NCBI GenBank assembly: GCA_012728075.1
Contig: JAAYFV010000126.1
Location: forward strand, 1-37,133
Reading direction: 5' to 3'
Length of the DNA: 37,133 bases
Source: Tissierellia bacterium
Lineage (GTDB): Bacteria; Bacillota; Clostridia; Tissierellales; Tepidimicrobiaceae
Shown: positions 1,201 to 35,106 of the stretch, piece after piece
How the letters are laid out: each line of letters opens with the position of its first letter
How positions within the stretch are numbered: the stretch's first letter is position 1
Translations under genes and position numbers: made by a program
Notes under the pieces: model-generated
The model's database searches: none
What the model saw: the letters and a program-made list of their open reading frames with translations, nothing else
What the model was told of the DNA's origin: nothing

Positions 1201-4200
1201 TTAATGGATAATATTTTCCAATCTTTTCAAATGTTCCAAATCCATTTCAATGCATGTGGAAGGCCCTAAATTTTTGTAGTCCATGGCTTTATATATGTCT
1301 GGCTTTCTAGGATACATCAATACTTCACCTAATCTCCATAAAGTTAAATTTTTTTCGTTTATATTTTGATAAGATTTTTCGATGGTTTCAAATATTTTTT
1401 TGCTATTTTCTAAGCAAGTTTTAGATAGATTGTATATAGCTTTTGGAGAGGTATTTTTAATAAAACTTGGTGAAGCATAAGGAAGTATTAGATTTATACT
1501 AGGTATCAAATAATCATCTTCCTCATTTTTCCTAAAGACCATATCTCCTCCAATAAATGGATATTGGCCACTTTCATTAAACCATAACTTTAGATTGGGA
1601 ACAAAATATGCACTATCTACTTGTATATTTTTAATATTTCCTATTTCTTTACCCTTGCCTGTAAGTATACCGACTATTATTTTTTTAATCTTTATTCCAG
1701 CATTTTTAAGTATAGGTTCTATTACATTTATTCTATACCCTTTATGGAGTAAATCATCAACTAGTATTATTGGTCTGTTAAAAGAGCTTAAAACTTTTGC
1801 TTGATTCTCTAAACTTAAATAGTTGGGAAAAGCTTGGATTGTAAAATTTGTGATACTAGAGTTAAATATCTTTTCAGTATGCATAGTTTTAGTTACTGTA
1901 TTAGGTAATATGGTTCCATTGAGTATAGTACCAAAAGGAACACACATATTAGGCCCCAATTTTTTGATTCTTCCTTGTATTGTAGATACTTGATTGGAAT
2001 CACATATCTTTTGGATTAACTTACTATATACCATATCTCTGTTAAAAGATAAAAGTAATTGTCCTGGATACAGATTGGATATGGCTTTCTTTAATTCTTT
2101 TCTAGTTTTATTTATTATATCTTTTATTTCAAAGTCTTCATCATAAGGGGGTTTCAATAGATTTTCCAAATCTTGATTTAAAGTTATTGGATTGTTCATA
2201 TCTACAACAAATATTGAGTTATAGTTATGTTTAAAAGGAGTTTTAATAAATCCCTGCAAGGGCAGGTTTTCTTCAAGGTAAAAATTACTATTATAATTTA
2301 GTTCATCTTTATAAATAGCATAGTTGTAGTCAGAAGCAACACAGTGGGCTAAAGTTTCATTTAATACTATATCCCAAATATATTCTTCCTTATTTTTACT
2401 ATATACTCCAGAGATGACTACTAATTTACCTTTAGCATGATTTCTTATATATTGAGTTATACTAGAATTTTCAAATTCATCAAATAGATTACCACTTTTA
2501 ACCCAGTAAAAGGTTGAAAATCCTAACATCTGGTTATTTTTAGTATCTTTAATCATAAGTATATTTGGTTCAAGTTTTTTCTTTAATCTAGATAGGAATT
2601 CAATATTCAATTTTCCCCTAAACTCCTTATATATATAGTTGAGTATATTATTGTCTATTTTATCTATTATTTCAATTTCTAAAGTTTTAGTTTGTACCAA
2701 TCTTTTGTATTGGGGTTCCCGTAGATATAAACCATATTTGTATATATATTGTTGAGCTAATGGATCTATCTGTTTTGAAATATCTCTATTTAAATCTATA
2801 GATTCTCTAATTTGAGTAGAGCTTATATCCTCGTATTGAGGAGGGAGGGACAACATTAGAATTTTCCCCTTAAGCATTTTAAGTTTTTCTTTAAGTATTA
2901 AGTCATCTCCCTCTTCTGATTGAAGGCTTTTTCGATGGAATATTATATGGGGAAATTGAGTTATTAATCCATCTTTACTATAAGCAGAAGCATTGATTAA
3001 TACATCTGTGCCTATAACTATATAAATTTCTTTTTTAGGGAATAAGTTTTTTAATTTTTTTAAATCTTTATCGTTGCTTATGTTTATAGGAATTTCGCTA
3101 GGGAACAAATATATATCCTTTTCATGGGCAATAGTCATATTTATTATATCCCTTCTAAATTTGTGGGCTTGGGTTCTCTTGGACCAGGAGAACTCATCTA
3201 CTGCTAGATAAACCTCATACCCTTTATCTCTTATTTCTAAAGCTATTTCTTTATGACTTAAGGAGAAGGGATCAAAACTACCAGGGAAAAAGGCAACGGA
3301 GCTTATTTGTTTTCCTTTTATAGCTCCATAGTAAAATTCATAATCGGAAATAAATCTATATATATGATTTAATGAAGCAGAATTAATTAGAAATAGAAAT
3401 TCATCATCTTCTTTTTGTGCTAATAAGGTCAATATTTTCTTTCCCATTAAAGAAAATATATGTTTTTTTTCTTTTAATGATAATTTATTGGAATTAAATA
3501 AGTGGCTACCAATAATCCTAAAAGATTCTGTATTTATTTCTTTGTCAAAGGAAGCCATACCATTTAATAGGATACCTAATAAACGATTTAATCTTTGATC
3601 CCTTATATATTTGTCTTCTTGAAATCTTGAATTATATCCAGAATAATTTTCAATACATATTCCAGTAGTTTTAAGCATTAAAAACACAATTTGAGTATTG
3701 GATTGTTTTACTTTATTTTCAAAATCATCTATTATTTCCTCTAGTTCATTTGGAGGAAGGAATAGTATCAATTTACCTAAATAGTCTGGTATATATTTAG
3801 TAAATTGATAATTTTGCATTTCTAATGCTCTTAACAATTCAATACATATATCATTTCTTTCCTCATAGGTTAAAAATTCAAATATATTTAAAAGGGTATG
3901 ACCTGCATAATTGCGAACCTTTTCAAAAGCACTTACCTTTAGTAGATTACAAAAATGCATTCCCGTATGGAGTCCAAGGGAGTGGGGTGATTTTTTTACC
4001 TGATCGTATAAAATATCTATATTTATTTTTTTGCTCATACAATCAGTAGCAGTTTTTAAATTTTTCAAGAATATATTGGATACATTTTCTTCATCTTTTT
4101 TATAATTATTTTTCAAAACTTGAAGTATGTGTTTTTCTAAATTTAGTTTAAGAGCTATTTTGTACTTTAAATAATTTTCTGCTGGATAGGGTGAAGCTAT

Positions 4201-6036
4201 TATATTTTTTAAAACCCATTTTTCTAATAGTTGAATAAAATGGATATTAGATTGGAGTTCTTCAAATATCTCATCTATTATATCTAGTGTGGTTAAACGG
4301 ATTTCTAGATAGTTTGAGTCCAACTGATTGAGTATATAGATATGAAATCTATCCAAATCTTTGTTGAGTAAATATTTTGTAGGTATATATTTAATAGTCT
4401 GAGCTAGATAAAATTGTCCTTTTGGAGCTATAGTAGAATAATTATCATAATATTTTAACATAACCTTTGAATATTTTTCATAATCCTCCCTAGGGGAGTT
4501 GTGAAACAAAGATTTTATAATAGTTTTAATATTATATTGCCATTCAATGGGCAATTCTGCTATTTTATGATCTGGATACAATATTTGGTCTAATATGTTT
4601 TCTAATATTTTATTGCTAGAACTTTGGAGATTTTCTTTATCTATATACTTGGGTAATTCTTTTCTATATTCTTCATCATATTGGCTAATTAAAAGGCCAA
4701 TTAATTCAGCAGCTTCTTTTCTTATATCCTCTTCCTTATGGAATAACAGATCTTCCAAAAAATGCAAAGTGATTAATTTTTGTTTTTGAGTTAAATAAGT
4801 GGAGTATTCATAAAATATTTGTAAATACATCCTTAGTTTTCTCCAATTATATTGACTTCTGGCTGTATCCAATATATTATTAAAGCTATTATCATCCAAC
4901 AGCTTGGCCATTAAATCTATATTGTGTTCAATAGCAAAATATTTAATATGTTCTACCACTTGATCATTATTCATCAAGGAGAAATATACGTCTTTACTAC
5001 TAGGAGTTAGCTGATCTTTAAGACTAATATCTACTCCTAAATATACCATATAGTCTTCAAAATCCTTTAATTTTCCATATACCTTTTCGTAGCGTTGTTC
5101 TTTTTTTTCATCTACATTATCTAATTTGTTTAGTATTACATCATAGGCTTCTTCTAAAGAGTATATATGCATTTTATCTTCTTTACCTATCTTTTTATTT
5201 TTAACTCGAAAATCTGCATATATCAATACTAAGGATTCTAAGGGTAAATTTTCTAATTCCAGATCCCAAGTAGAATGGTTGGTGGCTATATGGCCAATTT
5301 TTTCGATTCCTAATTTATTAAACCACTGTTCCGTATAATAATAGTGGAGATAGGGGACACGATGGATTTCATCTTGCTTAACTCCATATTTCCCAATATC
5401 ATGGCCTAATCCAGCTCCTACTATTAATCCTAAGTCTATAGGTAGATTCAATTTTTTTAGTTGTCGCCCAATATATAGGCTCAGATAATTTACTCCTACC
5501 ACGTGTTCTAGAGTATTGTGACCAGTTAAAGATAAATCCATCTTCATAAGTTCATATATCCAATTGTTTAAAAACCCATCTTTAAAGGCTAAATATTCCC
5601 GAAGGAATTTGGTATCTTGTTCCTCTTCTGTAGTTAAGAAACTAATAGGAAATTTATTTAAAAAGCTATTTTTATCATATATTATTTCTAATTTAGAAAA
5701 ATTTCTTAGCATGTTTAAATAGAATAAAACTAGTGGCTCTAATTTGTCATTAAAAATTATAGTGTTTTTTTCAGGATAGGATAGGTTTAAGACCCAATGG
5801 TATACATATTGAAGCCATTCTAAGCTATTTACATCCCAGTATTTAGTATATATTGGATGTAGTAATTCCATTAAACCCAGGGAGTCATATTGATTATTGA
5901 ATATCATATCTTTTAGATGGTTCCTAAACCTTTCATCTTCAATAATATAGTTTAAATCCCCTTTATATTTTTCAATATACTCCTTTTCCAATTCGTATAG
6001 CATATTTTTATATATTTTTTCATAAATTTCAATCAT
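1201..6036 (-). CDS. 1611-aa multidomain protein: HD phosphohydrolase (YqeK-like) + helical repeat region + NadD-like nucleotidyltransferase + possible GNAT + PRTase-like domain
   Basis: Long ORF. HD motif: TGHNTLEHVVG..GLGHDIGKYG..HIATNHSTWD..LIYADFRVK. Nucleotidyltransferase: VAFFPGSFDPFSLSHKEIALEI...IVIGTDVL...ISSTQIRESI. PRTase-like: RPIILVDDLLHKGYRINVIEPILKNAGIKIKKIIVGILTGKGKEI. The start overlaps the end of sdaAA by 4 nt. Confidence 0.85.
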   Translation of the reverse strand: MIEIYEKIYKNMLYELEKEYIEKYKGDLNYIIEDERFRNHLKDMIFNNQYDSLGLMELLHPIYTKYWDVNSLEWLQYVYHWVLNLSYPEKNTIIFNDKLEPLVLFYLNMLRNFSKLEIIYDKNSFLNKFPISFLTTEEEQDTKFLREYLAFKDGFLNNWIYELMKMDLSLTGHNTLEHVVGVNYLSLYIGRQLKKLNLPIDLGLIVGAGLGHDIGKYGVKQDEIHRVPYLHYYYTEQWFNKLGIEKIGHIATNHSTWDLELENLPLESLVLIYADFRVKNKKIGKEDKMHIYSLEEAYDVILNKLDNVDEKKEQRYEKVYGKLKDFEDYMVYLGVDISLKDQLTPSSKDVYFSLMNNDQVVEHIKYFAIEHNIDLMAKLLDDNSFNNILDTARSQYNWRKLRMYLQIFYEYSTYLTQKQKLITLHFLEDLLFHKEEDIRKEAAELIGLLISQYDEEYRKELPKYIDKENLQSSSNKILENILDQILYPDHKIAELPIEWQYNIKTIIKSLFHNSPREDYEKYSKVMLKYYDNYSTIAPKGQFYLAQTIKYIPTKYLLNKDLDRFHIYILNQLDSNYLEIRLTTLDIIDEIFEELQSNIHFIQLLEKWVLKNIIASPYPAENYLKYKIALKLNLEKHILQVLKNNYKKDEENVSNIFLKNLKTATDCMSKKINIDILYDQVKKSPHSLGLHTGMHFCNLLKVSAFEKVRNYAGHTLLNIFEFLTYEERNDICIELLRALEMQNYQFTKYIPDYLGKLILFLPPNELEEIIDDFENKVKQSNTQIVFLMLKTTGICIENYSGYNSRFQEDKYIRDQRLNRLLGILLNGMASFDKEINTESFRIIGSHLFNSNKLSLKEKKHIFSLMGKKILTLLAQKEDDEFLFLINSASLNHIYRFISDYEFYYGAIKGKQISSVAFFPGSFDPFSLSHKEIALEIRDKGYEVYLAVDEFSWSKRTQAHKFRRDIINMTIAHEKDIYLFPSEIPINISNDKDLKKLKNLFPKKEIYIVIGTDVLINASAYSKDGLITQFPHIIFHRKSLQSEEGDDLILKEKLKMLKGKILMLSLPPQYEDISSTQIRESIDLNRDISKQIDPLAQQYIYKYGLYLREPQYKRLVQTKTLEIEIIDKIDNNILNYIYKEFRGKLNIEFLSRLKKKLEPNILMIKDTKNNQMLGFSTFYWVKSGNLFDEFENSSITQYIRNHAKGKLVVISGVYSKNKEEYIWDIVLNETLAHCVASDYNYAIYKDELNYNSNFYLEENLPLQGFIKTPFKHNYNSIFVVDMNNPITLNQDLENLLKPPYDEDFEIKDIINKTRKELKKAISNLYPGQLLLSFNRDMVYSKLIQKICDSNQVSTIQGRIKKLGPNMCVPFGTILNGTILPNTVTKTMHTEKIFNSSITNFTIQAFPNYLSLENQAKVLSSFNRPIILVDDLLHKGYRINVIEPILKNAGIKIKKIIVGILTGKGKEIGNIKNIQVDSAYFVPNLKLWFNESGQYPFIGGDMVFRKNEEDDYLIPSINLILPYASPSFIKNTSPKAIYNLSKTCLENSKKIFETIEKSYQNINEKNLTLWRLGEVLMYPRKPDIYKAMDYKNLGPSTCIEMDLEHLKRLENIIH

Positions 6037-6899
6037 AAAATCCTCCTTTTAAGCTTTTCCCCTGTTGGGGTTGCTGCTATACCTCCTAAAGCGGTTTCAC
6101 GTAAGGATTCAGGCATAGATTTACCTACCTTGTACATAGCATCTACTACTTCATCAAAGGGAACTATAGAATCAATACCAGCTAAGGCTAAATCTGCTGA
6201 TATCATTGCATTGACTACTCCTGAAGCATTGCGTAATGCACAAGGAAATTCTACTAGTCCAGCTATAGGGTCACAAATTAATCCCATAATATTTAAAAGT
6301 GCAAAGGATGCTCCATTGAAAGAGGCTTCTACACTACCACCTAGCATTTCCACTATGGCAGCAGCTGCCATGCTACTTGCAGTACCACATTCAGCTTGGC
6401 AACCCCCTTCAGCTCCTGATATTGTGGCATTTTTAGCTATTATTTCTCCTATTCCTGCTGCAGTAAACAATCCGTGAATCATATCTTCATGGGATAGATT
6501 AAATTTTTCCTTTACAGATATGATAGCACTAGGCAATATTCCTGAGGCTCCAGCAGTAGGAGCTGCTACAATCTTACCCATAGAGGCATTAACTTCTGAA
6601 GTGGATAAGGCTTTTGCCATAGCAGAGTTAATTAATTGACCACTTATAGTATTTCCCTTATTTTTATAATCTTCCATTTTTTTAGCATCTCCTCCACTAA
6701 GACCACTAATGGAGATTACGCCTTTATCTAAAGCGGCATTGGCTGAATTTATCATAGTATCTAATACTGAATTCATATTATTCATAAGTTCCTCATAAGA
6801 GATTTGAGCATTATCTATCTCTTTTTCTACAACTATTTCCCATATTTTTTTATTTCGTGTTTTACATAAATTTAAAAGTTCTGAACCTTTATTAAACAT
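6033..6899 (-). CDS. sdaAA: L-serine dehydratase, iron-sulfur-dependent, alpha subunit
   Basis: Protein contains ...AAPTAGASGILPSAI...GAEGGCQAECGTASSMAAAAIVEMLGGS...LICDPIAGLVEFPCALRN..., typical of SdaAA. Confidence 0.95.
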   Translation of the reverse strand: MFNKGSELLNLCKTRNKKIWEIVVEKEIDNAQISYEELMNNMNSVLDTMINSANAALDKGVISISGLSGGDAKKMEDYKNKGNTISGQLINSAMAKALSTSEVNASMGKIVAAPTAGASGILPSAIISVKEKFNLSHEDMIHGLFTAAGIGEIIAKNATISGAEGGCQAECGTASSMAAAAIVEMLGGSVEASFNGASFALLNIMGLICDPIAGLVEFPCALRNASGVVNAMISADLALAGIDSIVPFDEVVDAMYKVGKSMPESLRETALGGIAATPTGEKLKRRIL

Positions 6900-6903
6900 T
6901 TCC

Positions 6904-7572
6904 CTACCTCCCTATGGGATTAATACCCGTAATATATATGATTTCATCTAAATTAGCTATATTATTTATTATATTATCTTTTATAGGATTGTCTATTTCC
7001 ATAATCATAGTTGCAATTTTTCCTTCTCTAGATACTTTCATAGTGGCTATATTTATATCTTCCTTAGCTAGTATGGAACTGATCCTACTAATAGATCCTT
7101 TTTGGTCTATATATCTTATCAATATAGTGGGATAGTTCCCAGAGAATTCCACTTTGTTTCCATTTACATCGGTTATTAAAATATTTCCTCCCCCTATAGA
7201 AGAACCTACTATATAATAATCTTCCTTATCGTAATAGGAGAAAACTATTTTTACCGTATTTGGGTGTTCATATCCTAAATCTTTTTCTATAAATTCAATT
7301 TGTATTCCCTTTTCTTTGGCGATGTTTAAAGAATCTCTAATCCTTTCATCGGAAGGCTCCATACCTAAGATTCCTGCTACGAGAGCTCTATCTGTACCAT
7401 GACCTTTGTAGGTTTTAGCAAAAGAACCATGAAGATAGAAGGTAACTTTATAAAAAGTATTATCAGCTATTTCTCTAGCCATTTTACCTAATCGAGTAGC
7501 TCCAGCAGTATGGGAACTAGAGGGACCAATCATAACTGGACCTAATATATCGAATATTCCATAATCTTTCAT
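6904..7572 (-). CDS. sdaAB: L-serine dehydratase, iron-sulfur-dependent, beta subunit (C-terminal ACT domain)
   Basis: FDILGPVMIGPSSSHTAGATRLG...LHGSFAKTYKGHGTDRALVAG...IGGGNILIT, with an ACT-like C-terminus. Directly upstream of sdaAA. Confidence 0.95.
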   Translation of the reverse strand: MKDYGIFDILGPVMIGPSSSHTAGATRLGKMAREIADNTFYKVTFYLHGSFAKTYKGHGTDRALVAGILGMEPSDERIRDSLNIAKEKGIQIEFIEKDLGYEHPNTVKIVFSYYDKEDYYIVGSSIGGGNILITDVNGNKVEFSGNYPTILIRYIDQKGSISRISSILAKEDINIATMKVSREGKIATMIMEIDNPIKDNIINNIANLDEIIYITGINPIGR

Positions 7573-7634: not shown

Positions 7635-7660
7635 TAAAAAATAGGAGGGCTAGCCTCCTA
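7633..7660 (-). terminator. Rho-independent terminator of the cis-prenyltransferase gene, overlapping its stop codon
   Basis: Minus strand TAGGAGGCTAGCCCTCCTA followed by TTTTTTATT. The stem includes the TAG stop (7652-7650). Confidence 0.7.
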
Positions 7661-8294
7661 AAGTGATATCTTGTCTGTCATACCATTCTAATGCGTCATA
7701 GAAATGTTCTTTTTTAAAATCTGGCCAATAATCATCTATGATATAGAAATCTGAATAAACTGATTGTAATGGTGGAAATCCGCTAAGCCTTCTTCTGCCA
7801 CCCCAGCGAATGATCAAGTCCACTCTTGAAACATCTCTAGATTTGATTAAATCAGTTATGTTTGTGTTTTCTTTAGCTAGAGATAGATAATCTTTTAAAT
7901 CCCATTGCCAACCATAGTTAACTAAAAAATTTACCTTTATTCCTCCAGAACCAAAGGTCTGTCTTTTTAACGTAAAGGGAACAAGGCTCCTTGGGAACAT
8001 ATCCGACTCTGTATTTCCTACTACTAGTAGTTCTGCATTTTCCCTGGAGAGCATTTTTACTGCTTCTACACAAGCTTTGGTGAAAGCTAATCTTTGATTT
8101 TTAGGTCTTTTGGTATTATCTACAGTAAATCCATAATAGGTAATTTCTTTAACTCCTTCTTTTTCACATAGTTTGAATAAATCCAATCCAGGTTTTAAAC
8201 CTTCTTTATAACCTTTCTCCTTGCTTAATCCATTTTCCATAGCCCATCTTCTATTGCCATCTGGTATAATACCTATATGGTTAGGTATTTTCAT
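7650..8294 (-). CDS. Isoprenyl (cis-prenyl) transferase / undecaprenyl diphosphate synthase family, divergent
   Basis: HIGIIPDGNRRWA, NYGWQWD, DLIIRWGGRRRLSGFPPLQSVYSDFYIIDDYWPDF match the UppS family pattern. Only 214 aa, with altered motifs. Confidence 0.85.
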   Translation of the reverse strand: MKIPNHIGIIPDGNRRWAMENGLSKEKGYKEGLKPGLDLFKLCEKEGVKEITYYGFTVDNTKRPKNQRLAFTKACVEAVKMLSRENAELLVVGNTESDMFPRSLVPFTLKRQTFGSGGIKVNFLVNYGWQWDLKDYLSLAKENTNITDLIKSRDVSRVDLIIRWGGRRRLSGFPPLQSVYSDFYIIDDYWPDFKKEHFYDALEWYDRQDITLGG

Positions 8295-26440: not shown

Positions 26441-29400
26441 ATGAAATTAATTGATAATAGGTACAGGGTAGATGAAATTTTAGAAGACTCCTTATATAGT
26501 AGTTTATATAGGGTTACAGATTTTTGGGATGATGATAAAAAGTTGTTTATGAAGTTATATAATACTGAAAGACAAGCAGATGTAATTTCATATTTTATCG
26601 AAAATTTTATTGCCCTATCCAATGTAAAACATAGATACCTATTAACTGCCAACCAGTTTGACATAATAAAAACAATAGATAGAAAAAAGGTTGATATAAA
26701 ACAATACTATTTAACTACGGAATATATTTCTGCACCAAGCCTGGATGAAGTGTATATGGATTTGAGTTTAGAGGATAGATTATATATAATATTACAGTTA
26801 TGTACAGTTTTAGATTTTATACATTATAGAGGATTAGTGTATAAATATTTAAGTCCTTCACATATATATGTCTTGGAAGATAATAGTATAAAACTGATGG
26901 ATTTGGCAACAATAAATGAGCGGACTATAAATAGATATTATGATGATTTGACTAGATATTTTATAGCTCCTGAAGTATTGCTAGAGCATGATGATATAAT
27001 CGACAAAGAAGCAGACAAGTATTCTTTAGGAATGATAATAGCATACCTTTTAACAGAAGATTTCTATAATTTTGATAATAATGATATAAGCTATATGGAG
27101 CATTTCCCATTAGGCTATGAACAGAAAAAACTTTTAAGCAGTGTTATAGCGGATTTTACAAAAAAAGATCCTGCTATAAGGAAACGTTCCTTAAGAGAAC
27201 TTATATATGATATTAATACTTTGTTTTCTATGAACTATAAATATGATTTGGTTGAAGAAAGAGGGACGCTAAATTTCAAGACCAAGATAGTTGGAAGAGA
27301 AAAGGAAATAAATGCCATATTATCCATAGATGATAATATATTTGACAATAAACTTAATGGTAAGATGATACTAGTAAAAGGAGATACTGGATTAGGTAAA
27401 ACTAGATTCTTAAAGGAAATAAGTTATCTGTTAAAGATGAGAGGTAGAAATGTTTATTTTACTGAGGTGCTTCATACTGGCAATACACCTTTAAAAGCTA
27501 TAGAAAATCTGTTGCGCCAAACCATTAAGGATACTCCTACTCATATAATGAGCAAATTTGGTAAGGAATTGGCTAGGGTTTTACCTGAACTAAAATATAT
27601 GTTGGATATAGATTATCATTATAATTTAGGTGAAGATAGGGAGAGATTACGATTATACGATAGGATAGCTAGTTATTTAGAGGAGCTTTCTAAAGATAAA
27701 CCTATATATTTGATTATAGATAGTGTAGATAATGGAGATCCACAGCTTCTATTTCTATTAGATTATATATTCAAGTCTTTAGATAAAGGGAGAGTAGTAC
27801 TTATACTAGCTATCAATGAAAATAAGATATCTAAAGATTATGTCAAGGAAGATATTATTAGGCAATGGAGTAATCATGGCGATGTAGAACAAATAAACAT
27901 GACTAATTTAGATTTATCAGAAATAGGGGAATTTATTCAATATATATTAGGAATAAGTTATAAGCCTTTAAAATTTTCTGCAGTTATGCTAAAGGAAAGT
28001 CAAGGTAATCCTAGATATATTGAATATATGATGAAGGATTTGCATGCAACAGGAGAGTTATACTTAAGTGCTGAAGGATATTGGGAAATTAAAACCAAAA
28101 AGTATTCGGACATATATTTTCTATCAAGTATAGATGAGGCTTTAAAAAGTCAAATTTATTATATGAAAAAGGAACATAGGGATATTATTGAGATTATATC
28201 CATATATGATAGCTCTGTATCTAAGAATACTTTATTAGATATATTGAATATGGATAAAGAAAAATTGGATAAAAACTTGGAAGAGCTAGTTGATATGGGA
28301 ATAATAGAAGAGAGAGTTGCTGATTGGGGTTATAGTTATAGCATCAGCAATATTCAGTTAAAGCGTATTATATATCATCAAATTCCTCAAGAACAAAGGA
28401 TGATGTTTCACAAAAGAATTGCTAAAATATTAGAATCTAAATACTCCCAAAATTATAAATCAATATTAGACGAGTTGACTTATCATTTAATGTCTTCAAA
28501 TCAAAGGGAAAAAGCACTAGAATATTTAGTAAAAGAAGCAGAGGAAGCTAATGCCTATAGCTCCAAGGGGACCCTTTTATGGGAAGAAGCTTATGAGATT
28601 GCAAGTACATTAGACTCAGAACATAAGATAAAAATACTTGAAAATCTTGGGAGAATCTATTCAATAAAAGGGGAAAACCAAAAGGCATTAAATATATACA
28701 AAGAATTGTTTAAATGTGGACAGGAACTAGATAAGATAGAATATTTAGTTATGGCAAAAATAGGAATGGGGGAAATATTTTTAAATAGAAGCTCCATAGA
28801 ATTAGCACTAAAAGAAGCTCAGGAGTCCATAGAAATATCTAAAGCAGAAAATTATATAGGAGGATTTATAAAAGCTTCTATATTGCATAATAAGATATTG
28901 CTAGATAATGGGAATTTTGAAGAAGTAAAAGAAAATATGAAGGAATTATTGGAGATTTGTTTTAGCAATGGTTTAGATATATATCTAGGTGATATATATA
29001 ATATTATAGGATTGAGCCATTACTATACAGGAGATATGGATAATGCTATAAATAATTATGAAAAAAGTATCCATAGTTTCCAGCAGGTAAACAATTTCAT
29101 CGATTCAACTAAACCTATAAATAATTTAGCCAATATTTTTATTCAACATGGTAAAATCGCTAAGGCTAATGAGTATTATGAAAAAGGCTTAGATATAGTT
29201 GATAGATATGGAGTTTTAAATTTAAAAATGATATTTTTAAATAATATAGGTTCTACCTATATTATTACCCATGATTATGAAAAAGGGAAAAAATACATAG
29301 AAGAGTCTAGGACAATAGCTATTGAAATAGAAGAAGCTAATATAGAGTTTTTAACTAATATAAACTTAGGACTAATACATCTATATATTGGAGAATATGA

Positions 29401-31834
29401 GCAAAGTTATAACTATTATATAATGTTAAAGGAGAAATATTCTAATAGTAGAGGATATAGCTATGAAGTAATTAGCTATTATTATAATTTTTTAAGTGAA
29501 TTTTATTATACCTTTGGAAGATGGAAAGAAGCTTTAAAATATTCAAATATGGCTATTGAAGCTTGCAAGGATTTTAGTAATGTAGAATTTATGATGTCCA
29601 AGGTAAGAAAATTAAGTATTAGATACTTGACAGATGGAGTATATGATAAGGATTCCATAGAAGAATTAAGAGAAGAACTTAAAATTATGAAATTAAGCTA
29701 TAATAGAAGAGATGGATTATTGCGGATGGCTATAATCCCCTATTTGGAAGGAGACTATGAATATGTACTAGATATCCTAAAAGAAGATATTAAGCTGAAA
29801 GAAAAATATTCAGCTCCCATATTAGATTATAAGAGCAAAATATTACTATACGGAATTGGCTATTATAAATTAAGTAAAGAAAATCTACTTGATATAGAGA
29901 AGAATATGAGAAAGTATGATTTACCCCATATAGATGTATATGCAAATATCATATTAGGATCAAGATCTATACAATATGGCAAACCTTATCAAGCCATTAA
30001 TTACTTGCTGGAAGCTTTGGATTTAATCTATGGACTAATTAAGAATATTCCTGACAGAGAACTTCAGATAGGCTATATAAAACGTCATAAAGGGGATGAT
30101 ATAAAACTAAAGATGACCCAAACAATTGAAAAAGCATTAGGGATTAAGGTGGATTCTATTTACATAAAGGATATAGATTTAGATCAAAACATTGAAAAGT
30201 ATTTTGATTATAGACCTTTGATTGCTATAATGGATGATGAAGATTTTAACAATATAATAGAATCTAATTATTATTATGGAGATATTAAGGATATTTCTAA
30301 TATAGAAACTTTGATATCAAATCTAACATCAGATTATGAATATAATTTGAATTTAATACTTAAGTACATTGGGAGGGAAACTTTAGCTGAAAAAGGATAT
30401 ATATTAGCTTATGATGATGAAAAAAGCAAATATTTACCTATTGCTAGTCTAAACAATAATGATATGTATTGGTTTCCTAATGAAAATTTATTATCTTTAG
30501 CCAATAGATATGAAGATGGGATATTGATTACTAATGGTAAAGAGGCAAATATTATAGGATTACATAGGGAATTCCTTTCTAAAGATATTAGGGCTTTAAT
30601 CTGTGTTCCAATCAAAGGGATTCAAAGGGAAGATAATTTTTTAGAAATAGAACGTCGTAGAAAAAACTGGATTACTTCTCAAAAAGTTGAAGGATATATA
30701 TATTTAGAGACAGGAAGGGTATTTAATCGTTTTGATAATAAAAGGCTTAGATTAACTAACTGTTTATCTCAAATATTATATATGAGTATAGAAAACTATA
30801 AGCTCAAGATATTATCAACTATAGATAAATTGACTGGTATCTATACTAGGAAATATTTTGAAAATCAGTTTAATAGAGTATTTGATGAAGCTAGGCTAAA
30901 TAGTGAAAACTTTGCAATACTCATGTTGGATATAGATAGGTTTAAAAATATAAACGATACTTATGGGCACAGAAAAGGGGATGAAGTGTTAAATAGGATA
31001 GGACAATGTATTAAAGATAGTGTTAGAAAAACGGATATAGTAGCTAGATATGGTGGAGAAGAGTTTATAATAATACTTAGAAATGTTGATTTAAAAGAAG
31101 CCAAGGATATAGGAGAAAAGATTAGGATAAACATACAAGAATTGAGAGTTTCCCATATAGAGGAGCCTATTACAATAAGTATTGGGATATCTCAATTTCC
31201 AAAACACAGTCAATTCAAAGAAGAGCTAATAGAAAAAGCCGATCAAGCTTTATACAATGCAAAAGAAAAAGGCAGAAACAAGGTAGTTGTTTGGGAACCC
31301 CATTTGGAAAACACATTAAATAGAGTTGACAAACTAGCAGGCATTTTATCTGGAAATATAAATCAAGATCAAATAAACATACTAGCTTTATTAGATATTA
31401 TAGAACTAATCAATAGTAATATTAATAAAGAGGAAAAAATACTTGAATTTTTGGGTAGATTAGTAGAAACAATAGAAGGAGAATATGCAAGTTTGATATT
31501 ATTTGATAAAAAAGGGGAACAAGGAGATGTACTTTCTCGATCTAGATTAAATCAGAAGGGTGAAAGAAAACCTTTTATTAATCAAGATATAGTAAATAGG
31601 GCCATTGCCAATAGAAAAGGAGAATTTTTAATAGATTGGGACAGTCTAGATGAGATGGATTTATTGATAACAGGCACTCCTAATTGGCAGTCGGTAATAG
31701 TGATTCCTTTGGAGTTTGAAGGGGAAATCAAAGGGATCGTATATATTTCAGTCCCATTAAAAGAGAAAGAGTTTGATTATAATGATTATAATATGGTTAG
31801 GGTTTTGTGTAGTGTTATTTCAGCTATAATATAG
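26441..31834 (+). CDS. 1797-aa signalling protein: (pseudo)kinase + AAA/STAND-like ATPase + TPR + GAF + GGDEF + GAF
   Basis: Kinase-like N-terminus (KLFMKLY..., VYKYLSPSHIYVLEDNSIKLMDLA, APEVL, DKYSLGMIIAYLLT); IVGREKEI...VKGDTGLGKTRFL Walker A; YLIIDSVDNGD Walker B; TPR-rich middle; DKLTGIYTRKYFE...LMLDIDRFKNINDTYGHRKGDEVL...RKTDIVARYGGEEF GGDEF; GAF-like C-terminus. Confidence 0.9.
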   Translation: MKLIDNRYRVDEILEDSLYSSLYRVTDFWDDDKKLFMKLYNTERQADVISYFIENFIALSNVKHRYLLTANQFDIIKTIDRKKVDIKQYYLTTEYISAPSLDEVYMDLSLEDRLYIILQLCTVLDFIHYRGLVYKYLSPSHIYVLEDNSIKLMDLATINERTINRYYDDLTRYFIAPEVLLEHDDIIDKEADKYSLGMIIAYLLTEDFYNFDNNDISYMEHFPLGYEQKKLLSSVIADFTKKDPAIRKRSLRELIYDINTLFSMNYKYDLVEERGTLNFKTKIVGREKEINAILSIDDNIFDNKLNGKMILVKGDTGLGKTRFLKEISYLLKMRGRNVYFTEVLHTGNTPLKAIENLLRQTIKDTPTHIMSKFGKELARVLPELKYMLDIDYHYNLGEDRERLRLYDRIASYLEELSKDKPIYLIIDSVDNGDPQLLFLLDYIFKSLDKGRVVLILAINENKISKDYVKEDIIRQWSNHGDVEQINMTNLDLSEIGEFIQYILGISYKPLKFSAVMLKESQGNPRYIEYMMKDLHATGELYLSAEGYWEIKTKKYSDIYFLSSIDEALKSQIYYMKKEHRDIIEIISIYDSSVSKNTLLDILNMDKEKLDKNLEELVDMGIIEERVADWGYSYSISNIQLKRIIYHQIPQEQRMMFHKRIAKILESKYSQNYKSILDELTYHLMSSNQREKALEYLVKEAEEANAYSSKGTLLWEEAYEIASTLDSEHKIKILENLGRIYSIKGENQKALNIYKELFKCGQELDKIEYLVMAKIGMGEIFLNRSSIELALKEAQESIEISKAENYIGGFIKASILHNKILLDNGNFEEVKENMKELLEICFSNGLDIYLGDIYNIIGLSHYYTGDMDNAINNYEKSIHSFQQVNNFIDSTKPINNLANIFIQHGKIAKANEYYEKGLDIVDRYGVLNLKMIFLNNIGSTYIITHDYEKGKKYIEESRTIAIEIEEANIEFLTNINLGLIHLYIGEYEQSYNYYIMLKEKYSNSRGYSYEVISYYYNFLSEFYYTFGRWKEALKYSNMAIEACKDFSNVEFMMSKVRKLSIRYLTDGVYDKDSIEELREELKIMKLSYNRRDGLLRMAIIPYLEGDYEYVLDILKEDIKLKEKYSAPILDYKSKILLYGIGYYKLSKENLLDIEKNMRKYDLPHIDVYANIILGSRSIQYGKPYQAINYLLEALDLIYGLIKNIPDRELQIGYIKRHKGDDIKLKMTQTIEKALGIKVDSIYIKDIDLDQNIEKYFDYRPLIAIMDDEDFNNIIESNYYYGDIKDISNIETLISNLTSDYEYNLNLILKYIGRETLAEKGYILAYDDEKSKYLPIASLNNNDMYWFPNENLLSLANRYEDGILITNGKEANIIGLHREFLSKDIRALICVPIKGIQREDNFLEIERRRKNWITSQKVEGYIYLETGRVFNRFDNKRLRLTNCLSQILYMSIENYKLKILSTIDKLTGIYTRKYFENQFNRVFDEARLNSENFAILMLDIDRFKNINDTYGHRKGDEVLNRIGQCIKDSVRKTDIVARYGGEEFIIILRNVDLKEAKDIGEKIRINIQELRVSHIEEPITISIGISQFPKHSQFKEELIEKADQALYNAKEKGRNKVVVWEPHLENTLNRVDKLAGILSGNINQDQINILALLDIIELINSNINKEEKILEFLGRLVETIEGEYASLILFDKKGEQGDVLSRSRLNQKGERKPFINQDIVNRAIANRKGEFLIDWDSLDEMDLLITGTPNWQSVIVIPLEFEGEIKGIVYISVPLKEKEFDYNDYNMVRVLCSVISAII

Positions 31835-33531: not shown

Positions 33532-33560
33532 TAGATAATGTATCAAATCAAAATTATAAT
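33532..33560 (+). promoter_or_regulatory. Candidate sigma-A-like promoter for hutH (TAGATA-17 nt-TATAAT)
   Basis: TAGATA (33532-33537), 17-nt spacer, TATAAT (33555-33560), just upstream of the hutH SD. Confidence 0.4.
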
Positions 33561-33579
33561 AATCATAGGAGGGAAGCCC

Positions 33580-35106
33580 ATGAACAAAGTATTAATAAAT
33601 GGTAATAATTTAACATTAGAAGATTTTATTAATGTAGTAAGGCATAATTACACAGTTGAACTAACTAATGAAGCAATAAAGAAAATTGAAAGATCTAGAC
33701 AAATAGTAGATAAATTTGTAGAAGAAGAAAAGATAGTATATGGTATAACAACAGGTTTTGGAAAGTTTAGTGATGTAAACATATCTAAAGAGGAAACTAA
33801 AATTTTACAGAAAAATCTTATTATGAGTCATTCTTGTGGAGTAGGCAATCCTTTAGATGAAGAAATTGTAAGAGGAATTATGCTCCTTAGAGCTAATGCG
33901 CTAGCTAAAGGACACTCTGGTATTAGATTATCAACATTAAACACTTTAATAGATATGTTAAACAAAGGAGTACATCCAGTAATTCCAGAAAAAGGTTCTT
34001 TAGGTGCTAGTGGAGATTTAGCTCCTTTATCCCATATGGTATTGGTCATGCTAGGTGAAGGGGAAGCGTATTATCAAGGAAAACGATTAAAAGGAATTGA
34101 AGCTATGAAAAGAGCAGAAATTCCAACAGTGGAATTAACATCAAAAGAGGGATTAGCATTGATAAATGGCACTCAGGTGATGACTTCCATTGGTGCATTA
34201 ACTCTTTATGATGGAATAAATTTAAGCAAAACTTCTGATATAATTGCAGCTTTAACTGTGGAAGCACTAAATGGAATAATTGATGCTTATGATATTAAAG
34301 TGCATGATGTAAGGAAACATATTGGGCAATTGAATACTTCAAAAAATTTACTTAAACTATTGAAAGATAGCAATATGACTACGAGGCAGGGAGAATTAAG
34401 GGTACAAGATGCTTATTCTTTACGATGTATACCCCAAATACATGGAGCTAGTAAAGATGCAATAGATTATGTAAAGGAAAAAGTTAATATTGAGATGAAT
34501 TCAGCAACAGATAATCCGTTAATATTTGATGAAACAGAAGAAGTAATTTCTGGTGGCAATTTTCATGGGCAACCTATGGCATTAAGTTTTGATTTTTTAG
34601 GAATTGCATTGTCTGAAATAGCAAATGTATCAGAAAGAAGATTGGAAAGACTTGTAAATCCAGCTTTGAGTGGATTGCCAGCTTTTTTATCTAGAAATGG
34701 AGGTTTAAATTCAGGATTCATGATAGTTCAATATTCTGCAGCTTCTTTAGTATCGGAGAACAAAGTTTTAGCTCATCCTGCTAGTGTAGATTCTATACCA
34801 TCTTCAGCAAATCAAGAAGATCATGTGTCCATGGGTACTATTGCTGCAAGAAAAGCAAAGAGCATATTAGAAAATACACGAAAAGTTTTAGCTATGGAAC
34901 TTTTAGCAGCTTGTCAAGGTATTGATTTAAGAGGGAAGAAAAAATTAGGAAAAGGTACTGAAATAGCTTATAATATAGTTAGAGATAAAGTTCCTACCAT
35001 AGAAGAAGATAGGATAATGTATGAATATATAAATATATGTGAAGATATGATTGAATCTAATATTATATTGGAAAAGGTAGAAGAAAAAATTGGAAAATTA
35101 TTATAA
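33580..35106 (+). CDS. hutH: Histidine ammonia-lyase
   Basis: GSLGASGDLAPLSHM (ASG motif forming MIO), YGITTGFGKF, FHGQPMALSFDFL, SSANQEDHVSMG. Start moved to 33580 (AGGAGGG SD); track start is 33538. Confidence 0.95.
   Translation: MNKVLINGNNLTLEDFINVVRHNYTVELTNEAIKKIERSRQIVDKFVEEEKIVYGITTGFGKFSDVNISKEETKILQKNLIMSHSCGVGNPLDEEIVRGIMLLRANALAKGHSGIRLSTLNTLIDMLNKGVHPVIPEKGSLGASGDLAPLSHMVLVMLGEGEAYYQGKRLKGIEAMKRAEIPTVELTSKEGLALINGTQVMTSIGALTLYDGINLSKTSDIIAALTVEALNGIIDAYDIKVHDVRKHIGQLNTSKNLLKLLKDSNMTTRQGELRVQDAYSLRCIPQIHGASKDAIDYVKEKVNIEMNSATDNPLIFDETEEVISGGNFHGQPMALSFDFLGIALSEIANVSERRLERLVNPALSGLPAFLSRNGGLNSGFMIVQYSAASLVSENKVLAHPASVDSIPSSANQEDHVSMGTIAARKAKSILENTRKVLAMELLAACQGIDLRGKKKLGKGTEIAYNIVRDKVPTIEEDRIMYEYINICEDMIESNIILEKVEEKIGKLL

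Follow-up and report, generated by a model that had tools for sequence, protein, structure and literature searches.

A conserved giant protein with a NadD-type nucleotidyltransferase domain, encoded with two redox genes in anaerobic Bacillota

Results

The locus and its gene family

The window, by which we mean the whole 37,133-nucleotide stretch of a Tissierellia bacterium contig analysed here, carries near its start an uninterrupted reverse-strand open reading frame of 1611 codons with an ATG start (gene 0; Table 1). The initial annotation had read this frame as a fusion of HD, helical, nucleotidyltransferase, GNAT-like and phosphoribosyltransferase (PRTase)-like parts; both the single open frame and its coordinates proved correct, and the proposed domain order recurs, with the same motifs, in 40 homologues of about 34-79% identity, which is beyond chance. 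Directly upstream of the giant, overlapping it by 4 bp, lie the L-serine ammonia-lyase genes sdaA/sdaB (6033-7572), preceded in the same orientation by a gene for a 214-aa undecaprenyl-diphosphate-synthase-like protein that scores below the UppS cut-off (7650-8294). A conserved operon with sdaAB was considered and rejected, the linkage being confined to the nearest relatives. Further along, the window encodes a large signalling protein of 1797 aa that combines a Ser/Thr kinase and a diguanylate cyclase with AAA_16 ATPase, TPR and GAF domains (26441-31834; the cyclase as GGDEF), and an aromatic amino acid lyase of the HAL/PAL family, probably histidine ammonia-lyase (33538-35106; 680 bits), with a gene for a LacI-type regulator nearby.

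Table 1. Features of the giant protein and its partner genes, in window coordinates unless a contig is named.
Feature	Residues	Position	Strand	Basis
Gene 0, multidomain giant, first in conserved cassette	1-1611	1201..6036	-	ORF and full-length homologues
Poorly conserved helical N-terminus	1-145	5602..6036	-	alignment and AlphaFold model, low confidence
HD domain	146-330	5047..5601	-	Pfam match, invariant ligands
HEAT-like alpha-solenoid	357-905	3322..4968	-	AlphaFold model, Foldseek, weak HEAT matches in relatives
NadD-type nucleotidyltransferase; GSFDPFSLSH, DEFSWSK, GTDV...Y, ISSTQIR	912-1115	2692..3303	-	Pfam, NCBIfam, structure-profile and Foldseek matches
GNAT-fold domain, no conserved acyl-CoA pyrophosphate-loop motif	1117-1280	2197..2688	-	AlphaFold model, Foldseek
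PRTase-like domain; conserved PNTVTKxxHTEK, VDDxLxKGYR, WFNExxxYPFIGGD	1300-1611	1204..2139	-	weak profile matches
Atypical PRPP-loop-like motif IILVDDLLHKGYR	1423-1435	1732..1770	-	profile comparison and alignment
Gene 1, lactate/malate-dehydrogenase-like, N-terminal extension of ~110 aa		2..1180	-	Ldh_1_N matches, locus comparison
Gene 2, four-Cys FMN_red flavoprotein, after gene 1		G000:C202:8308-9354, outside the window		FMN_red matches

The nearest full-length relatives of the giant (61-79% identity) are found in Clostridium sp. Cult3, Clostridium sp. Cult2, [Clostridium] ultunense and a Tissierellia MAG. Among 392 sampled Clostridia genomes 32 carry it, with identities of mostly 40-50% along ~1600 aa, and a profile of its C-terminal part gave four matches in 300 genomes of the phylum, all inside open reading frames of 1573-1617 aa and two of them in other classes than Clostridia. 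Neither search encountered the C-terminal domain as a stand-alone protein. The architecture is that of an old, conserved family. All its domains are of familiar kinds; their combination and the gene cassette are undescribed in Pfam, NCBIfam, PADLOC and PMC open-access text, in agreement with the earlier statement that no characterised protein of this architecture was known. Pfam at present labels the giant just 'cytidylyltransferase-like' and 'HD', and its cassette context is now defined.

The distribution of the family was also weighed against other origins and functions. An anti-phage or conflict system might be expected from a large multidomain protein with nucleotide enzymes and a patchy distribution, but genes 0 and 1 had no PADLOC match at E<=0.1, no defence neighbours were seen, the family was absent from phage and viral contigs, and the sequence identities of the three cassette genes run largely parallel; we regard this reading as very improbable. 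A phage or mobile origin was rejected on the same lack of matches in phages and viral contigs, and the single 'plasmid' match, an Acetoanaerobium record of 2.6 Mb, is evidently chromosomal; it is on this chromosome-sized record that Acetoanaerobium noterae also carries the giant. A link to sporulation was likewise rejected: SpoIVA occurs in 23/32 cassette genomes and in 282/392 overall, 72% in both cases, and hence is not associated with the cassette.

Two redox genes form a cassette with the giant

A survey of genomes for conserved architecture and neighbours, suggested with the initial annotation, found the architecture kept across the family and the same two genes downstream, in the order 0-1-2, at 21 of 25 loci compared, while the remaining neighbourhood differs. 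These partners, overlooked in the first reading of the locus, are both redox genes. At the window start the contig ends within gene 1, whose C-terminus lies on a second contig (G000:C202) with a 127-bp overlap. The Ldh_1_N domain was found in 7/7 members tested, and R209, R283 and H307 (equivalent to LDH Arg109, Arg171 and His195) are retained, with an invariant Asp241 in place of LDH Asn140 and, in most members, Asn or His281 in place of LDH Asp168. Gene 2 carries FMN_red in 6/6 members tested, together with an extra N-terminal part of ~160 aa and four invariant cysteines (CxxCx4Cx8C), and is probably an Fe-S flavoprotein by its motifs; it matched no NCBIfam family and no solved structure at E 1e-3.

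Genes 0 and 1 mostly lie 1-24 bp apart, genes 1 and 2 overlap by 4 bp at most loci, and Acetoanaerobium and both genomes of other classes have the full cassette as well. Of the 392 Clostridia genomes 31 have gene 2, and each of these also has gene 0; just one of the 32 genomes with gene 0 lacks gene 2, and its assembly is fragmentary and 82% complete. Sequence identity, compared pair by pair, is correlated among the three genes (Spearman 0.65-0.83, over pairs that are not independent). At two loci (L041 and L042) genes 0 and 1 are separated by glutamate-synthase-like genes and, on the opposite strand, a gene resembling ammonium transporters, all named by eye, and genes 1-2 still follow downstream despite the insertion. 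That the giant is inherited with two redox proteins as a fixed unit suggests a nucleotide or cofactor pathway of anaerobic bacteria that is so far undescribed.

Domains of the giant protein

The claimed HD set is borne out: Pfam PF01966 (HD) matches residues 175-275 (nt ~5212-5514) above its cut-off (E 8e-6), and H178, H212, D213, H231, H254 and D275, as well as K216, are invariant in 40/40 homologues. With ligands assigned by motif, the domain is of the six-ligand H..HD..H..H..D type, the pattern of dinuclear HD proteins such as YqeK and HD oxygenases (PMC8177086). An Arg three residues before the first His is strictly conserved in HD phosphatases, YqeK included (PMC8177086), whereas the giant has Thr at this position (Thr175) in 38/40 homologues. 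The YqeK profile TIGR00488 did not match the giant at E<=1, the giant's HD profile showed no similarity to the YqeK of the same genome (hhalign probability 0.7%), and a profile search of solved structures with the HD segment returned nothing at E 0.1. AlphaFold runs with five sequences yielded no usable model of the HD and PRTase parts. The long helical region that follows was modelled confidently as an alpha-solenoid of ~550 aa, for which Foldseek matches HEAT proteins such as PP2A-A, and weak HEAT profile matches are present in relatives of the giant, so that the earlier claim of a helical region now stands as one of a HEAT-type solenoid.

That the next domain is a NadD-type nucleotidyltransferase, as had been claimed, is certain. 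Pfam PF01467 (CTP_transf_like) matches residues 916-1078 above its cut-off (E 2e-8), a profile of 24 members matches NadD structures (E 1e-8), Foldseek with the domain model finds NadD (E 6e-6, target TM 0.6), and the domain aligns with the NadD of the same genome at an hhalign probability of 95%. NCBIfam NadD models match residues 912-1105 far below their cut-offs, with 45.5 against 112.45 bits for TIGR00482 and 37.7 against 150 bits for PRK00071. On the ATP side, the (S/T)xxH and ISS(T/S)xIR motifs are kept in cassette copies with a complete nucleotidyltransferase domain. On the acceptor side, PPHK and the Trp after GxD of NadD, both present in the NadD of the same genome, are absent, and invariant DEFSWSK and Tyr1019 stand in their place; because of these replacements, the acceptor probably differs from that of NadD.

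These results bear on the initial interpretation of the giant as an elaborated NadD-YqeK system, here taken as one that would make NaAD and hydrolyse Ap4A or faulty NaAD. Its structural premise holds in that an HD domain, a NadD-type domain and a weak PRTase-like match do share one chain, and both the NadD matches of the nucleotidyltransferase profile and the YqeK-like ligand pattern favour it. The proposed identity, however, fares poorly: the same genome holds a separate canonical nadD (TIGR00482, 197.9 bits, cut-off 112) with yqeK beside it (TIGR00488, 138 bits, cut-off 70), the giant's HD domain lacks both YqeK profile similarity and the phosphatase Arg, and the nucleotidyltransferase falls below the NadD cut-off with its PPHK and Trp features changed. 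We therefore consider an elaborated NadD-YqeK improbable.

The possible GNAT-like stretch of the initial annotation is supported as a fold by modelling (pLDDT ~80 at residues 1117-1280) and by Foldseek matches to NatD, PCAF and bacterial GNATs (target TM 0.5-0.6); sequence-level support is marginal, and among 40 sequences no conserved Q/RxxGxG/A acyl-CoA loop was found at residues 1212-1224. The closeness of this fold to protein N-acetyltransferases such as NatD, like the size of the HEAT solenoid, would suit a machine for macromolecule modification, in which the solenoid holds an RNA or protein, the nucleotidyltransferase activates or adenylylates it and the other domains edit the mark. The tRNA-Met cytidine acetate ligase, with a related nucleotidyltransferase fold, activates a macromolecule in a similar way. 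The absence of a conserved CoA motif tells against such a function, as does the nature of the constant partners, which are redox enzymes, and no RNA-binding domain was found; we rate it unlikely, at roughly one chance in eight.

The C-terminus is plausibly PRTase-like. Pribosyltran (PF00156) matches 18/25 giant family members, the best at E 0.0012, and the Acetoanaerobium giant at E 7e-4 over profile positions 40-140, all below the Pfam cut-off; NCBIfam leaves just a trace of PRTase at residues 1423-1467. In profile comparison the PRPP loop aligned in register with HPRT-type enzymes at 30% probability, against about 1% or less for unrelated profiles; the GNAT profile scored 27.5% in the same comparison solely via 11 residues common to both alignments. 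Within the loop D1427 is conserved in 40/40, D1428 in 35/40 and G1433 in 39/40 sequences, and HKGYR (K, R) replaces xTGxT. AlphaFold with five sequences gave a pLDDT <50 here, and neither the PRTase nor the GNAT segment had a meaningful match among solved structures. A StiP-type PRTase (PF11202), suggested by a YLIPS-like motif, was rejected (hhalign probability 0.2%). We treat the PRTase domain claimed by the initial annotation as PRTase-like and putatively catalytic, a plausible assignment but a weaker one than those of the HD and nucleotidyltransferase domains.

Giant copies without the redox pair

Second giant copies without genes 1-2 occur in three genomes (G155, G199 and G311; loci L046, L053 and L098) and form one clade (support 100), and thus count as a single event. 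In all three the HD ligands and PRTase-like motifs are intact, the SSTxIR motif is lost and GNAT Arg1198 is exchanged for Tyr; two have also lost GxDV. Since nucleotidyltransferase residues are lost in these copies while those of the HD and PRTase-like parts are kept, adenylyl transfer, rather than either of the latter, appears tied to the redox pair. In the cassette of Clostridium sp. Cult2, the giant has an in-frame deletion of ~118 aa in the nucleotidyltransferase (L008:13007 region), and ~107 aa are deleted out of frame from gene 2 (L008:16345 region); this double deletion fits such a coupling, and may be decay or an assembly error.

Discussion

The present analysis identifies a nucleotide enzyme of five parts that is accompanied by two redox proteins, and so opens a hidden pathway to direct testing. 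As a tentative best explanation, to which we give somewhat less than even odds, the giant would handle the nucleotide side of a pathway of three genes, in which it makes an adenylylated nucleotide, removes it or does both, and the redox pair acts on that nucleotide. The NadD-type domain would take AMP, or a different NMP, from a nucleotide triphosphate and attach it to an acceptor that carries a phosphate; the product would be NppA-like or otherwise adenylylated. The presence of the PRTase-like domain suggests that the acceptor is phosphoribosylated, and this domain might bind or make it; the dinuclear HD domain might hydrolyse this product or its wrong and spent forms, and the HEAT solenoid would keep the domains in one assembly. 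Redox chemistry on, or with, the adenylylated product would fall to the NAD-type dehydrogenase-like product of gene 1 and to the putative Fe-S flavoprotein. What the data show directly is the set of domains, the conservation of catalytic-site residues in the HD and nucleotidyltransferase domains, the conserved cassette, the co-occurrence of its genes and the loss of nucleotidyltransferase residues in copies that stand without genes 1-2; the directions of the reactions, their substrates and catalysis by the PRTase-like domain are inferences.

A bolder version, which we hold to be a minority prospect, is that the cassette makes, proofreads and uses an undescribed adenylylated redox nucleotide, NAD-like or a base-modified dinucleotide, in anaerobic Bacillota. 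Here the PRTase-like and NadD-like domains would build the nucleotide, the HD domain would clear faulty or used forms, and genes 1-2 would encode dedicated redox enzymes. If the product is a new dinucleotide, then anaerobes would possess a further cofactor or signal besides NAD and Ap4A; if the system serves NAD damage control, it would show the extent to which HD-NadD proofreading has been elaborated outside mycoplasmas.

The atypical PRPP loop, the missing phosphatase Arg and CoA motif, and the Asp and Asn exchanges in gene 1 together suggest that several cassette domains may bind rather than catalyse. Foremost among the rivals, followed in turn by macromolecule modification, an elaborated NadD-YqeK and lastly a defence system, is a regulatory sensor, whose HD, PRTase-like and GNAT-like parts would bind nucleotides such as PRPP, NAD(H) or Ap4A-like molecules and set the activity of the gene 1-2 proteins. 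The first of these loop and motif features, the absent CoA motif and the altered LDH catalytic pair are what such a sensor might show, as are a large HEAT scaffold and a nucleotidyltransferase that is dispensable in the orphan copies. Mere binding, however, has no need of HD ligands invariant in every homologue, nor of nucleotidyltransferase motifs maintained in complete cassette copies, and we put the chance of a sensor at about one in five.

Among known systems, the nearest tested precedent for the mechanism we favour is the NadD-YqeK fusion of mycoplasmas (PRK07152; JCVISYN3A_0380), which likewise joins a NadD-type adenylyltransferase and a dinuclear-type HD domain in one chain; in JCVI-Syn3A the HD domain of such a fusion removes erroneous products of NadD by hydrolysis (PMC9426524). 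Those fusions are of about 360 aa, place the nucleotidyltransferase first, have an HD domain that matches YqeK, and are without HEAT, GNAT or PRTase-like parts or a redox cassette, whereas in the giant the HD domain is N-terminal, fails to match the YqeK of its own genome and is without the phosphatase Arg. Taken singly, NadD (TIGR00482) shares with the giant's nucleotidyltransferase its fold, GxFDPxxxxH and ISSTxIR, but the giant reaches 45.5 bits against 112 and carries DEFSWSK at the PPHK region and Tyr for the Trp after GxD; the YqeK Ap4A hydrolase (TIGR00488) shares the six-ligand dinuclear HD pattern (PMC8177086) but neither profile similarity nor the Arg before the first His, which is Thr in the giant. 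Type I phosphoribosyltransferases (PF00156) may share with the C-terminus a strand-DD-loop-helix PRPP region, alongside weak family matches, and differ in having xTGxT where the giant has HKGYR; the giant adds the near-invariant PNTVTK..HTEK and YPFIGGD. Of the redox partners, gene 1 resembles L-lactate/malate dehydrogenases in its Ldh_1_N domain and departs from them by two catalytic-position exchanges and an N-terminal extension, and gene 2 resembles FMN-reductase and iron-sulfur flavoproteins in FMN_red and departs from them by the ~160-aa N-terminal addition and the four-Cys motif.
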